From positions 1 to 64,000 of the forward strand of contig CANMKE010000004.1 of NCBI GenBank assembly GCA_947498325.1: a stretch of 64,000 bases of DNA, in the 5' to 3' direction. Origin of the DNA: an uncultured Persicobacter sp. GTDB taxonomy: Bacteria > Bacteroidota > Bacteroidia > Cytophagales > Cyclobacteriaceae. The notes below the pieces were generated by a model, which was not told where the DNA came from, made no database searches, and was given only the letters and a program-made list of their open reading frames with translations. The stretch's first letter is position 1; each line of letters opens with the position of its first letter. The position numbers were made by a program, and so were the translations under genes. Below, piece after piece: positions 6,713-35,396 of the stretch.

Positions 6713-6983
6713 CCTGAAGGAGTTACCGATCAATTTATTTTCAACAATTAAGAAGCTGATTCCATTCCCTGGCCTCATGACGGATACTTCTGTTTTTTCA
6801 GCATAATCAAACATCAGATAAAAGGTGGCTGATTATCGGAAGGACAGAACCCATCCGTCATATTTCAGAACAATTATTGACCGGGTATTTAACTGTCCAT
6901 ACCCCAACCTCCATGGTGTCCCATATTTATTGCTTCTTCTTCCACTTTGCTCATCTGTATTCCCCTAATCCCTGCCCTCAGCT
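6713..6983. other. Intergenic space, nothing recognised
   Basis: This 271-bp space lies between convergent genes. I see no ORF, terminator with a clear T-run, or RNA fold. Confidence 0.5.
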
Positions 6984-28946: not shown

Positions 28947-29711
28947 ATGAGTTATATGATGTATAAGGAACTATCCAAAAGGATCTCAAAATTGATCAAA
29001 TCCCTGCAAATAAAAAAGTACAGGAAACAAGAACATTCATTTTTTGTCGAAGGTGCGAAAAATACAGAAGAAATTCTATCAACAGGCTATAAAGTAACGG
29101 TTTTGGTGGGTACTGCCGATTACCTTGACAGTATTTCGGAACTGATCGCCAAGCACCCGGAAATGGAAGTTTTTGTGGCTGATGAAAAACAGCTCGGGGC
29201 CTTGGGTACATTTGCTACCAACAATGCTGCTATTGCGGTGGCGGAACAGAAAGATTTTGAACAGCCTTCACTCGATGAGCAGGAATTTGCCCTCGTGCTC
29301 GATGATGTCCGTGACCCGGGCAACCTCGGGACCATCATCCGTATTGCGGACTGGTATGGCATCAAAAAAATTATTGCCTCTCCCAATACTGCTGACTTCC
29401 ACAACCCAAAAGTACTGAATGCCTCCATGGGTTCTTTCAGCAGGGTGAGTATACATTACACCGCCCTGCCGGAGTTTCTTGCCGCGCAGCAAGCCCCCAT
29501 TTATGGCGCACTGCTTGAGGGAGACAACATCTACAATGAGCGCTTTGATCAGGGCGGATTTGTGATCATGGGTAACGAGTCTATCGGAATATCAGATGCC
29601 GTGAAACCATTCATCACACATCAAATTCATATCCCCAGAATTGGTGGGGCAGAATCACTGAATGTCGCTATTGCCACGGCGGTGATCTGCGACAACATCC
29701 GAAGACCCTAA
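28947..29711 (+). CDS. TrmH/SpoU-family RNA 2'-O-methyltransferase
   Basis: The 254-residue protein has an N-terminal substrate-binding domain with FFVEGAKNTEEIL and a SPOUT knot with NLGTIIRIADWYGI, IMGNESIGIS and IPRIGGAESLNVAIA, the three SpoU motifs. It methylates rRNA or tRNA ribose. The start is ATG 28947; 28956 or 28959 are equally possible. Its first codon lies 6 bp from the tamL start. Its last 57 bp overlap the end of the convergent transporter gene. Confidence 0.9.
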   Translation: MSYMMYKELSKRISKLIKSLQIKKYRKQEHSFFVEGAKNTEEILSTGYKVTVLVGTADYLDSISELIAKHPEMEVFVADEKQLGALGTFATNNAAIAVAEQKDFEQPSLDEQEFALVLDDVRDPGNLGTIIRIADWYGIKKIIASPNTADFHNPKVLNASMGSFSRVSIHYTALPEFLAAQQAPIYGALLEGDNIYNERFDQGGFVIMGNESIGISDAVKPFITHQIHIPRIGGAESLNVAIATAVICDNIRRP

Positions 29712-30515
29712 AGATTCTTGCTCGCCAAAAAACAAAGAGGTTTTGCTTGCCTCATTGGCCAATTCATCTGCATATTCCTTGCCCAGGTATTGGTCGATGA
29801 GGTAGTGAGCAAAATACAAAACGGGCGTCAGGATAATGGCTACCGTGAATTTATAGATGTAATTGATAATCCCCACCGATAGCACAAGGCTGTACGACCA
29901 GTTGCCAAACACCCAAAAGGCAATCCAGAGCACCACAAAGGAATCTATCAGCTGAGAAACAAGGGTGGAGCCGGTGGCCCTGAGCCATATTTTGCCGGAG
30001 CCGGTTACTCGTCTTAGTTTCTGAAAAATATAAACGTCGAGAAATTGACCGATCAAAAAAGCCACCAGCGAACCGACAATAATCCCCAGCCCCTGCTGAA
30101 AGATGGTTTTGAATGCATAATTGATATCGAAAGCCTGCCCCTGCGCATCCTGCGCATTGACCTCAAGCCAAAAATCTGCGGCAGGCAGCTGCGTAACGCC
30201 ATAAATCACAAAAAACGAATAGGCGATCAACCCGGCGGTCAGGAAGCTGATTTTCCGCACCCCCGCTTTCCCAAAATATTCATTGATGATATCCGTAGTG
30301 ATAAAAACGATAGGCCAGAGAATTGCGCCGGCGGTCAGGTTAAAATCCAGCATCAGCTCTTCAAAAAGCGGAATCCTTGCCGGATCCACACCAAGCGCCT
30401 TTTCAGCGGAAAAAATCTTTACCCCTATCAGCTCCGCAAGAATGGCATTGGTGATAAAAATCCCGCATAAAAATATAAACAGGCTGGTTTTCTTTTTAGT
30501 AAGGTTGGTGGTCAT
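29655..30515 (-). CDS. Queuosine-precursor transporter (VUT/YhhQ family)
   Basis: The 286-residue inner membrane protein has six or more hydrophobic segments. The family motif region is ELMLDFNLTAGAILWPIVFITTDIINEYFG (about 49-79), with the T-D-x-x-N-E-x-x-G core. It takes up queuine precursors such as preQ0 or preQ1 for tRNA queuosine. The C-terminal acidic/His tail is encoded in the overlap with the convergent methyltransferase gene. No preQ1 riboswitch was seen upstream. Confidence 0.88.
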   Translation of the reverse strand: MTTNLTKKKTSLFIFLCGIFITNAILAELIGVKIFSAEKALGVDPARIPLFEELMLDFNLTAGAILWPIVFITTDIINEYFGKAGVRKISFLTAGLIAYSFFVIYGVTQLPAADFWLEVNAQDAQGQAFDINYAFKTIFQQGLGIIVGSLVAFLIGQFLDVYIFQKLRRVTGSGKIWLRATGSTLVSQLIDSFVVLWIAFWVFGNWSYSLVLSVGIINYIYKFTVAIILTPVLYFAHYLIDQYLGKEYADELANEASKTSLFFGEQESLGSSDVVADHRRGNSDIQ

Positions 30516-30763
30516 GGCAGGTAGTGGTTATCGGTATTTTAGGGTGATGAAGGTTGAATTTCGGCAATTTATTGTAATGGGCAGCAAAGTAAGGCTGAAA
30601 TTATGCCTAAAATTTGGCCCTTAAACCAATGGAATTTATAGGGTGAATTTTGAAATCCAATAATTCTCATACCATTGCAAGCGCATATCGCCGCTTATAC
30701 TTGCAGCAAGAACAGAAGTCGCCACTGCGTTTTGCTCAGCAATAACCAAAATCGGCGGTACAA

Positions 30764-33255: not shown

Positions 33256-34587
33256 TTATTCCTCCACAAGCACCCCTCGCTTGTAGTTTTCGGTGTTTTT
33301 CACCGCACCTCTTCGGTTGTGATATTTCCATTCACCCACCTTCTGATCGCCGACATACTCCCCTTCCCAGGCCACAATTCCATTGCGGTGGTAGGTGAAA
33401 TACTTGCCATTTTTTTTGCCCCGCGCATAGTTGGCCAGGGTTGTTAATTTTCCGGAAGGGCTGTAGTTTTTTACTATGCCCGTCAGGTGCCCAAAATGAT
33501 ATTGCGCCTCCTGCTCAAGCTGTCCATTCGGATAATAAAAAATGCGCATCCCATTAATCCGGCCTTTATTATAAGGGCAACTTTCTTTCAACTTGCCATT
33601 CTGTGCATAATAAAATTGCCAAATACCTATGGCCAGATCATTGGCCCACTTTTTATCCGCGATCAACACGCCATTTTCAGCATAGCTCAGCTCCTGACGG
33701 TGGCGCCCCTTATCCGTGATTTTTATGAGCCGTTTCACCGATTCACCATTAGGGAAATACTCATAATTATCGCCATGCATTTCATTGTTTCGGAAATTGT
33801 TTTTCTGCCACAGCTTACCGCTTTCATAATAGGCCAACACTTGCCCCTCTACTTTGCCCTCTTTATAGGTACCTGATTTTTTCAGTTGCCCAGAAAGGTA
33901 GTACTCTTTAAAAGTTCCTGATTTTTTCCCGGCAAGGTGCTCGTAACTCTTTTGAAGTTGTCCGCTTTCAAAAAAGGTTTTATAAGAGCCATTCATGTAG
34001 CCATTCACAAAAGTCGCTTCGGTAGATTTATGCCCATTGGGGTAATAGGTAATGGTCAGGCCATTGGGTTTGCCATTTTTATAAACCACCGACTTCCTGA
34101 TCTTCCCATTATCATAAAAATCGTTCACCTGCCCATCAGGAGCTCCACCCGCCATGGCTGTCTGGTTCCTGATTCGTCCATCGGCATAGTAGGAAGTTAC
34201 CTCGCCAACGAGCGTATCGGCCTTAAAAGTGGCCTGCTGAATCACCACTCCCTGATCATTATAAACCTCCACCTTTCCGGATTTCAGCCCCTGGTGATAG
34301 GGAATCTCACGCATCAGCTGCCCATCGGGATAATAATCCTTGAAAGTCCCTTCTCGTTTACCTTTCTCAAAAATGCCCTCACTGGATATTTTGCCATTGG
34401 GGTGAAAAGTTTTGAACACTCCTTCTATCATAGAGCTGTCGCTGCCAATAATAAAATAGTGAGCCTTGAGTTGCTTTTGAGCCTGATCGTGGTAAATCGT
34501 TACTTCCCGCAGCGCGGGTCTTCCCTGCCCAAAAGTAGCGGCAGCAATAAAACTGAAGAATAATAAATGGATTAAGCGTTTATTCAT
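33256..34587 (-). CDS. Secreted MORN-variant repeat protein
   Basis: The 443-residue protein has a signal peptide (ending in TFGQ at about 21) followed by about fifteen tandem MORN_2-type units of the form YxPNGxLxxxxxYxxGxxxG, each about 23 residues. These are often annotated as YwqK-family antitoxins, but no toxin is present and the protein is exported. It is probably an envelope or surface beta-sheet scaffold. It is a single gene, 99 bp upstream of purC. Confidence 0.82.
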   Translation of the reverse strand: MNKRLIHLLFFSFIAAATFGQGRPALREVTIYHDQAQKQLKAHYFIIGSDSSMIEGVFKTFHPNGKISSEGIFEKGKREGTFKDYYPDGQLMREIPYHQGLKSGKVEVYNDQGVVIQQATFKADTLVGEVTSYYADGRIRNQTAMAGGAPDGQVNDFYDNGKIRKSVVYKNGKPNGLTITYYPNGHKSTEATFVNGYMNGSYKTFFESGQLQKSYEHLAGKKSGTFKEYYLSGQLKKSGTYKEGKVEGQVLAYYESGKLWQKNNFRNNEMHGDNYEYFPNGESVKRLIKITDKGRHRQELSYAENGVLIADKKWANDLAIGIWQFYYAQNGKLKESCPYNKGRINGMRIFYYPNGQLEQEAQYHFGHLTGIVKNYSPSGKLTTLANYARGKKNGKYFTYHRNGIVAWEGEYVGDQKVGEWKYHNRRGAVKNTENYKRGVLVEE

Positions 34588-34780
34588 AGCTTAAAAATAG
34601 CACAAAATTCAATAGCCTAAATAATTTTTATGCTGATATCATTTTCAAATACAACAATCACCTATTTTACTAACCTTATTTTAATATAGCAGTGATAATA
34701 ATCGACATTTAAATAAAATTTAATGATAACAATCATAAACGAACCTTAAAGGCGTCAATATTACTCTCAGTTCAACCCCC

Positions 34781-34788
34781 TACATTTG
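34781..34788 (+). promoter_or_regulatory. -7 element of RNA unit 1
   Basis: TACATTTG matches TAnnTTTG. The start of transcription is predicted at about 34794, which is exactly where the first hairpin begins (34795). No good -33 element is visible. Confidence 0.55.
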
Positions 34789-34794
34789 TATCAT

Positions 34795-34948
34795 AGTCAG
34801 TGAGCGTGCAACGAAGCACCTCAGCCAAGACTAAGTGGTTATTGTTTGTTTTATGGTTTTGCAATAACAGGAGGTGGGTTCTCCGTTATTGAAAATTTGT
34901 TTGATTGTTGATTAGATTCCCGGTTTCTTCGGAAACCGGGAGTTTTTC
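34795..34948 (+). ncRNA. Putative structured small RNA, unit 1
   Basis: P1 (34795-34832) has AGTC/GACT, TGAG/CTCA and GTGC/GCAC pairs. A conserved linker of about 25 nt (34836-34860, TGGTTATTGTTTGTTTTA...) follows. P2 (34862-34891) is CAATAA/TTATTG with GGAG/CTCC. A second linker GTTTGATTGTTGAT lies at 34899-34912. P3 is the terminator, CCCGGTTT/AAACCGGG. The unit repeats 195 bp downstream with different stems. It could instead carry a tiny ORF (GTG, then VIVCFMVLQ). Confidence 0.6.
34919..34947 (+). terminator. Terminator of RNA unit 1
   Basis: CCCGGTTT (34919-34926) pairs with AAACCGGG (34933-34940) around CTTCGG, then AG and five T. Confidence 0.85.
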
Positions 34949-34971
34949 TAAACAAGCCACGAACTGAAGAG

Positions 34972-35137
34972 TATCTATCCGAGCTTCGGCTCCGGTATTT
35001 ATATTATAGGTTGAATTTCATTTCAACCTATGGTTATTGTTTGTTTTAGGGTTTTAGAAAGGTGTAGAGGTACATCTTTCGGGTTTTAGTTTGATTGTTG
35101 ATAGCCTTTCAATGTTTGCATTGAAAGGCTTTTTTTG
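34972..35137 (+). ncRNA. Putative structured small RNA, unit 2
   Basis: The layout is that of unit 1. P1 is TAGGTTGAA/TTCAACCTA (35007-35030), with an extra GAGC-TTCG-GCTC hairpin before it (34981-34992). Linker 1 (35031-35055) differs from unit 1 at one of 25 positions. P2 is GAAAGGTGTA/TACATCTTTC (35057-35080). Linker 2 GTTTGATTGTTGAT is at 35089-35102. P3 is an 11-bp terminator. No TAnnTTTG promoter was found; it may be read through from unit 1 or use another promoter. Confidence 0.55.
35103..35136 (+). terminator. Terminator of RNA unit 2
   Basis: AGCCTTTCAAT (35103-35113) pairs perfectly with ATTGAAAGGCT (35120-35130) and is followed by T. Confidence 0.92.
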
Positions 35138-35396
35138 CTCCAATCCGAATTATTTTTGTGTAAATAGCAAAAAAATACCCTTATACAAATAGACAATCCT
35201 GTCGCCCAACATCCACTACTAACTTTTACCAAAAACAGCACCCTATTAAACTGAGGGCGCTTTTTATGTCAAACCTACTCTTTTTTGGAAGAGCGACAAT
35301 ATTACGATCATGCTCAAGAATACTAATCACAACGATAATCACTATTATTTATATGGCACGATAATTGGCTTAAAGGATTTTGTAAAAAATATCCCA

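Follow-up and report, generated by a model that had tools for sequence, protein, structure and literature searches.

A tandem pair of paralogous small RNAs with a Crp/Fnr-type promoter layout in Persicobacter and related marine Bacteroidota

Introduction

The small RNA GcvB carries a G/U-rich single-stranded element that binds C/A-rich sites in mRNAs. In enterobacteria, the small RNA (sRNA) FnrS is controlled by the Crp/Fnr family and base-pairs with mRNAs of oxidative metabolism, as described in PMC10993149. TCA genes, sucCD among them, are repressed by RoxS/RsaE of the Bacillota, which covers their start region, and the RoxS promoter holds a conserved redox-regulator site near -65 (both as described in PMC4409812). 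Closer to the organism considered here, GibS and FopS of Bacteroides are paralogous sRNAs, of which GibS has two seeds, R1 and R2, and binds translation initiation regions (TIRs; PMC11697453). Rfp18 of Flavobacterium is described as a conserved structured sRNA with predicted mRNA pairing through a stem-loop and an effect on proteases (PMC9723704). Our impression from the literature accessible to us is that few sRNAs assigned to a circuit have been described in Bacteroidota outside Bacteroides; in that literature we found no paper on the small RNAs of Persicobacter and none describing the RNA reported below.

Here, we analyze a stretch of 64,000 nucleotides from an uncultured Persicobacter sp. 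(the window), in which two tandem RNA-like units had been predicted from the sequence. The units are a real pair of paralogous, terminator-ended, non-coding small RNAs, previously uncatalogued, from marine Bacteroidota. The RNA family and its promoter layout are well supported, and we infer the expression, the pairing, and the targets of both sRNAs. Throughout, G000 is the genome of the window, G426 belongs to the same species, G001 is a second Persicobacter species (CCB-QB2), and G011 and G030 represent two other genera within the family.

Results

The two units share constant linkers joined to hairpins that differ in sequence (Table 1). Both repeats described in the original prediction were confirmed. 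Linker 1 recurs over 25 nt with a single mismatch (34836-34860 and 35031-35055; offset, 195), and the 14-nt linker 2 is identical in both units (offset, 190); neither linker contains a C. The original prediction had also placed hairpins P1, P2, and P3 at matching positions in each unit, with stems of unrelated sequence. All six fold in isolation, with z scores of -4.2 to -5.7 against shuffled sequences, while a 15-nt partial piece of the unit 2 P1 gave no fold alone. As larger segments, unit 1 (34795-34960) and unit 2 (34975-35140) reached z scores of -4.65 and -5.11, respectively, values attained by none of 200 shuffles in either case. When copies were folded over their whole length, P3 was kept throughout, and P1 was retained in some copies and rearranged in others (both unit 1 copies, including that of the window, and G030b). 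The fraction predicted to be unpaired in these folds was 0.49-0.73 for linker 1 and 0.23-0.62 for linker 2, a moderate degree of openness.

Table 1. Positions of the sRNA units, their parts, and associated features in the window
Feature	Position	Strand	Remarks
MORN-repeat gene (PF07661)	33256-34587	-	Pfam; transcribed away from the sRNA; marker of the conserved locus
Crp/Fnr-type inverted repeat ATGATAACAATCAT, TGA-N6-TCA core	34723-34736	+	45 nt before the -7 box
-7 promoter box TACATTTG (Bacteroidota)	34781-34788	+	sequence; kept in G426, G001, G011, G030
sRNA unit 1	34794-34949	+	5' end placed from the box and P1
P1 hairpin, unit 1	34794-34833	+	z -4.20 folded in isolation
Linker 1, unit 1	34835-34860	+	G/U-rich; candidate seed 1; near invariant in seven copies
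P2 hairpin, unit 1	34862-34891	+	isolated fold and covariation
Linker 2 GTTTGATTGTTGAT, unit 1	34899-34912	+	candidate seed 2; no change at any of 14 nt across the seven copies
P3 terminator hairpin with U tract, unit 1	34915-34947	+	sequence, isolated fold, covariation
sRNA unit 2	35006-35136	+	no recognized promoter of its own
P1 hairpin, unit 2	35006-35031	+	z -5.51; retained in whole-length MFE
Linker 1, unit 2	35032-35055	+	
P2 hairpin, unit 2	35057-35080	+	z -5.65; covariation
Linker 2, unit 2	35089-35102	+	identical to that of unit 1
P3 terminator hairpin with U tract, unit 2	35103-35136	+	z -5.43; sequence, covariation
Predicted linker-1 site	30523-30546	-	before the 286-aa transporter gene 29655-30515; -27.3 kcal/mol

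Comparison with Rfam 15 assigned the units to no family: between 34600 and 35310, seven matches were obtained at E≤10, all far under gathering. Over the whole window there were just two hits, both outside the units; these are small SRP RNAs (RF04183) in two tandem copies on the minus strand, at 8-108 and 215-317 (66.5 and 68.7 bits).

Homologs were found within the family. A BLAST search of 59 relatives recovered the region in G001 (79%) and a 26-nt piece of it in G011; a match in G055 was spurious and lacked linker 1. The exact linker-1 pattern, in a scan of genome contigs that may omit records near the window, returned the record of Persicobacter sp. CCB-QB2 only. We then used a covariance model (R1) built from five sequences, which were brought into register manually and padded with N, on 148 genomes of the family. 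Twelve matched at E≤0.1, and the linkers were present in five (G000, G426, G001, G011, and G030), with G030 carrying the RNA at two separate loci. The window units scored 124.4 bits (unit 1, 34835-34950) and 83.7 bits (unit 2, 35030-35136), both being training sequences of the model. A refitted model (R2) revealed no further real member among 295 genomes of the class and 241 of the order, although divergent members may have been missed because filters were strict and few candidates were scored.

Most weaker candidates were rejected. Linkers were missing from the R1 matches in seven further genomes of the family and from one weak match in G001. A general Bacteroidota motif of "GTTTGATTGTTG before terminators" rested on weak model matches in 11 other class genomes and three order genomes, all without linker 1; such matches are chance pick-up by a terminator-bearing model. 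Pattern matches in eight other genomes of 390 had no adjoining linker 2. A locus of G011 (L040, C3:113909-113966; L044 about 6910-6967; E 0.07) has a TAnnTTTG box (TAGTTTTG), P1, linker 1, and a terminator, with neither linker 2 nor an inverted repeat at 45 or 23 nt, and is a possible single-linker relative.

In all, seven distinct copies are available: two in each of the two Persicobacter species, one in G011 (without P2), and two in G030. The covariance-model search proposed with the original prediction thus returned homologs with covarying stems, bearing out the view that the units are paralogous small RNAs. Among the 24 base pairs of P2 and P3, 20 change on both sides in the seven-copy alignment (A7) and 16 in a five-sequence alignment (A5), with 94.7% and 98.1% of cells pairing, respectively. 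None of 500 shuffles reached the covariation score in either alignment, and sliding the partners destroyed it in both. These alignments lean toward structure, since they were structure-guided; when G000 and G001 were aligned with plain MAFFT, the same pattern of compensating changes in the stems and unchanged linkers appeared. Because both units are present in G001 with their linkers intact and with stem changes that compensate, the units are not a product of chance. Across the seven copies, linker 2 is invariant at every position, and linker 1 has 14 consecutive invariant positions (TGGTTATTGTTTGT) with little variation after them.

The RNA lies in a conserved setting on one side only. The MORN-repeat proteins encoded beside it are 60% (G001), 36% (G011), and 34% (G030) identical to that of the window, and purC, on the far side, is 84, 72, and 72% identical in the same genomes. 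Downstream of the RNA, G000 and G001 have a porin gene; in G011 and G030 the neighbor is convergent, of the Epimerase and ABC_tran families, respectively. That the RNA diverges from this MORN-repeat gene in all four genomes, while the downstream gene varies, indicates a free-standing RNA gene; together with its intrinsic terminator and the lack of a conserved open reading frame, this is what is expected of a trans-acting sRNA. The second copy in G030 (L043, C58:29089-29196) is flanked by a MORN-related gene (28%) on one side and by a gene for methionine sulfoxide reductase on the other, so that an association with MORN-repeat genes recurs at both G030 loci. An 18-nt repeat, 83% identical, is found on the plus strand before unit 1 (34752-34769) and before the porin gene (35293-35310).

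Two simpler accounts of the locus can be weighed against these observations. The original prediction had raised the option of a tandem leader acting in cis on the Porin_O_P gene at 35310, which does follow the RNA in both Persicobacter species. Each unit has its own terminator, however, so that two terminators precede the gene, and the RNA and its promoter persist in G011 and G030, where the neighbors are unrelated and convergent; a porin leader is very improbable. It had also named a tiny translated frame in linker 1 (VIVCF...) as the main alternative. Every one of the seven copies can encode VIVCF, but frames, lengths, and stops vary around it while the linker nucleotides stay constant: the frame continues to differing residues and stops, the start is GTG in six copies and ATG in one, third positions show the same constancy as the first and second, and linker 2 falls in different frames. 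We attach almost no probability to a translated mini-ORF spanning linker 1.

The promoter of unit 1 has a fixed architecture. The predicted TAnnTTTG box, which we take to be the Bacteroidota -7 consensus, stands just 5' of P1. The Crp/Fnr-type inverted repeat ends 45 nt before this box in G000, G426, G001, and G011 and 23 nt before it in both copies of G030, where it is shifted toward the box by 22 nt, roughly two helical turns. All six boxed promoters that were compared carry the repeat at exactly one of these two distances. Unit 2 has neither the box nor the repeat, with no TAnnTTTG box in the stretch between the units, and may be transcribed by read-through or from an unrecognized promoter.

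The same layout precedes genes of central metabolism. A sample of 1.80 Mb drawn from four genomes held 64 occurrences of the 14-nt repeat on both strands. In 11 combinations the repeat stood within 90 nt before a box, four times at 45 nt and three times at 23 nt; four of these seven were the RNAs themselves. Genome-wide (G000, G001, G011, and G030), the 45-nt layout was found 10 times versus once for the reversed pattern, and the 23-nt layout 23 times versus twice. The 33 layouts (reversed control, 3) comprised five for this RNA, 16 for central-metabolism genes, one for coxB (G000), and 11 for other genes or sites inside a gene. Assigned by NCBIfam or Pfam, the 16 were gapA (four, one per genome), pfkA (three), tpiA, gpmI, pckA, and pta (two each), and pyk (one). 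The spacing was learned from the RNAs, but the metabolic coherence of the genes that share it was not. The layout genes (L244-L276) form a candidate glycolysis regulon. HTH_Crp_2 matches numbered four to six per genome (19 over the four genomes, 18 above cut-off), and a receiver-cNMP-binding-HTH_Crp_2 fusion, present in all four (L198, L199, L200, and L201), is a candidate regulator.

The suggestion that the linkers are mRNA-binding sites gains support from their predicted complementarity to the starts of acs, coxB, sucD, and accC. With at most one mismatch, the linker-2 complement occurs 44 times in the four genomes, seven of these being the RNAs themselves, versus three times for the reversed pattern, a soft control in that it holds rare words. 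Among 28 such places inspected, several sit just before an ATG. These include, in G001, the gene for a 190-aa unknown (0 nt from the ATG, with a 15-nt match over it), accC (1 nt), and queD (17 nt); in G030, acs (10 nt) and coxB (13 nt); and in G000, metZ (15 nt). Linker-1 sites precede the ATG of sucD (10 nt) and paaE (15 nt) in G001. The linker-1 complement was not commoner than its reversed pattern (16 versus 25 non-self matches, rough counts in that sRNA genes were only roughly excluded and the listed places include the self-like L082 of G011 and L069 of G030). Between -27 and -7, acs of G030 has a 21-nt stretch that is fully complementary to the genome's own sRNA. In a sample of 1373 starts, perfect matches reached at most 14 nt (three cases, named candidates included) and, with reversed linkers, 12 nt.

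These discovery targets had been selected visually among pattern matches near ATGs, and their orthologs provided a test of replication. Orthologs were tested for six of the eight genes (acs, coxB, sucD, accC, metZ, and paaE), queD and the 190-aa unknown being the other two. G426, of the same species as G000, and the biotin carboxylase paralogs L132, L135, and L136 were left out before testing; neither acs in G001 nor an accC ortholog in G011 had been reported. Relative to 331, 635, 307, and 100 sampled start regions and with correction for two linkers, six of 15 tests gave p≤0.05: acs in G000 and G011, coxB in G000, G001, and G011, and sucD in G000. The associated p values (binomial, 5e-5; Fisher, 1e-5) are both optimistic, as the tests are not independent given the close relationship of G000 and G001. 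The nine failures included every test of accC, metZ, and paaE, along with sucD in G011 and G030.

On a wider scale, the pairing signal was weak. At 966 starts from G000 and G001, linker 1 reached -20 kcal/mol or lower 12 times (15 shuffles: mean 4.2, highest 10) and linker 2 reached -16 or lower four times (mean 0.2, highest 1). In coding windows, linker 2 gave three sites (mean 0.4, highest 2), and part of its excess is therefore not specific to starts. Across 112 ortholog pairs, conserved pairing was no better than in shuffles, with the exception of coxB, and linker 2 yielded nothing; coxB is the one pair with both members at -19 or lower, the strictest cut-off, which 3 of 60 shuffles equaled. 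The lowest linker-1 energy of the 966 starts belongs to the site before the transporter gene, which was not replicated in its G001 ortholog (just -15.1). For coxB, the best-pairing linker is linker 1 in G000, G001, and G011 and linker 2 in G030; for acs, the switch between G011 and G030 runs in the opposite direction.

Discussion

Our preferred explanation, which we regard as probable, is that the twin RNAs are Crp/Fnr-controlled, trans-acting, base-pairing sRNAs that would lower respiration and acetate use during fermentation. We infer from sequence that a Crp/Fnr-family regulator would activate unit 1 from the site 45 nt upstream of the -7 box, and the same regulator probably drives the glycolysis and acetate-forming genes. 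In the resulting RNA, with the order P1, linker 1, P2, linker 2, and terminator, the G/U-rich linkers would serve as seeds, each an alternative to the other, pairing with A/C-rich sequence just ahead of the start codon and blocking translation. Predicted targets for repression belong to oxidative metabolism and acetate assimilation, namely coxB, acs, sucD, and perhaps accC. The circuit would be a feed-forward switch: with glycolysis and fermentation on, cytochrome oxidase, acetyl-CoA synthetase, and succinyl-CoA synthetase would go down. The stems would act as spacers, stabilizers, and terminators, which could account for their preserving pairing alone. Since coxB of G000 itself has an activator-type site, the loop could be incoherent, and in that genome the RNA may trim coxB rather than switch it off. 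More tentatively, and with slightly less than even confidence, the system may be a switch specific to Bacteroidota and of independent evolutionary origin, in which one Crp/Fnr regulator would turn on glycolysis and acetate formation and, by way of the shared promoter layout, twin sRNAs with interchangeable seeds. These would shut down targets that persist while the seed changes, namely cytochrome oxidase, acetate re-use, and the succinyl-CoA step of the TCA pathway.

Other functions can be imagined for RNAs under the same control. Frozen single-stranded G/U linkers, up to two per RNA with two RNAs per genome, might bind a protein, of RRM type or other, such that the RNAs would be a sponge or a protein-guided regulator. 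RbpB of Bacteroides is described as binding single-stranded regions of paralogous sRNAs (PMC11697453), and a weak genome-wide pairing signal would fit as well. Yet neither the 21-nt perfect match at the acs start in the same genome (G030), nor linker-2 complements just before ATGs, nor the replication of coxB, acs, and sucD would be expected from protein binding, which we consider unlikely. We also think it improbable that the RNAs pair with mRNAs as part of this regulon while their main targets lie elsewhere and coxB, acs, and sucD are mostly due to chance. The limited statistics behind these three genes, the A/C-richness of many TIRs, and the near-background result for the 112 pairs speak in favor of such a view, under which queD, the 190-aa unknown, metZ, and the transporter at 29655-30515 would be candidates; the six replications in 15 tests and the metabolic coherence of the targets with the promoter regulon speak against it.

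If the base-pairing switch is true, it would supply a ready regulon (gapA, pfkA, tpiA, gpmI, pyk, pckA, pta, and the RNA) with testable targets, and it would be a case of seed swapping with constant targets. More generally, the layout of TGA-N6-TCA, 45 or 23 nt, and TAnnTTTG offers a practical signature with which to map a regulator of central metabolism.

Comparison with the described systems brings out likenesses and differences. Like GcvB, it has a G/U-rich element, with no Rfam sequence match at E≤10; the regulator and targets of GcvB differ from those proposed here. It resembles Rfp18 as a conserved structured sRNA of the same phylum with predicted mRNA pairing, whereas Rfp18, by its description, pairs through a stem-loop and has a protease effect. 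With GibS and FopS it shares the phylum, paralogy, and, by prediction, seeds that act at start regions, but architecture and targets are different, and no Rfam match was obtained at E≤10 (a comparison by Rfam models, not by the letters of R1). RoxS/RsaE has sucD as a target in common, predicted here. RoxS, however, combines C-rich motifs with ResD, whereas this RNA has G/U-rich seeds and a Crp/Fnr-type site; C-rich seed motifs are absent from its C-free linkers, and no Rfam match to RoxS/RsaE appeared at E≤10. FnrS homology is likewise missing among the Rfam matches at E≤10 (34600-35310), and FnrS differs from the tandem pair with two frozen G/U linkers, the company of glycolysis promoters, and a Bacteroidota box. 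The likeness to FnrS lies in a Crp/Fnr-type promoter site, here at fixed spacing, and in predicted targets that are oxidative. On our best reading, the RNA would work like FnrS and RoxS/RsaE, and, if so, it would represent a Bacteroidota counterpart of FnrS and RoxS.
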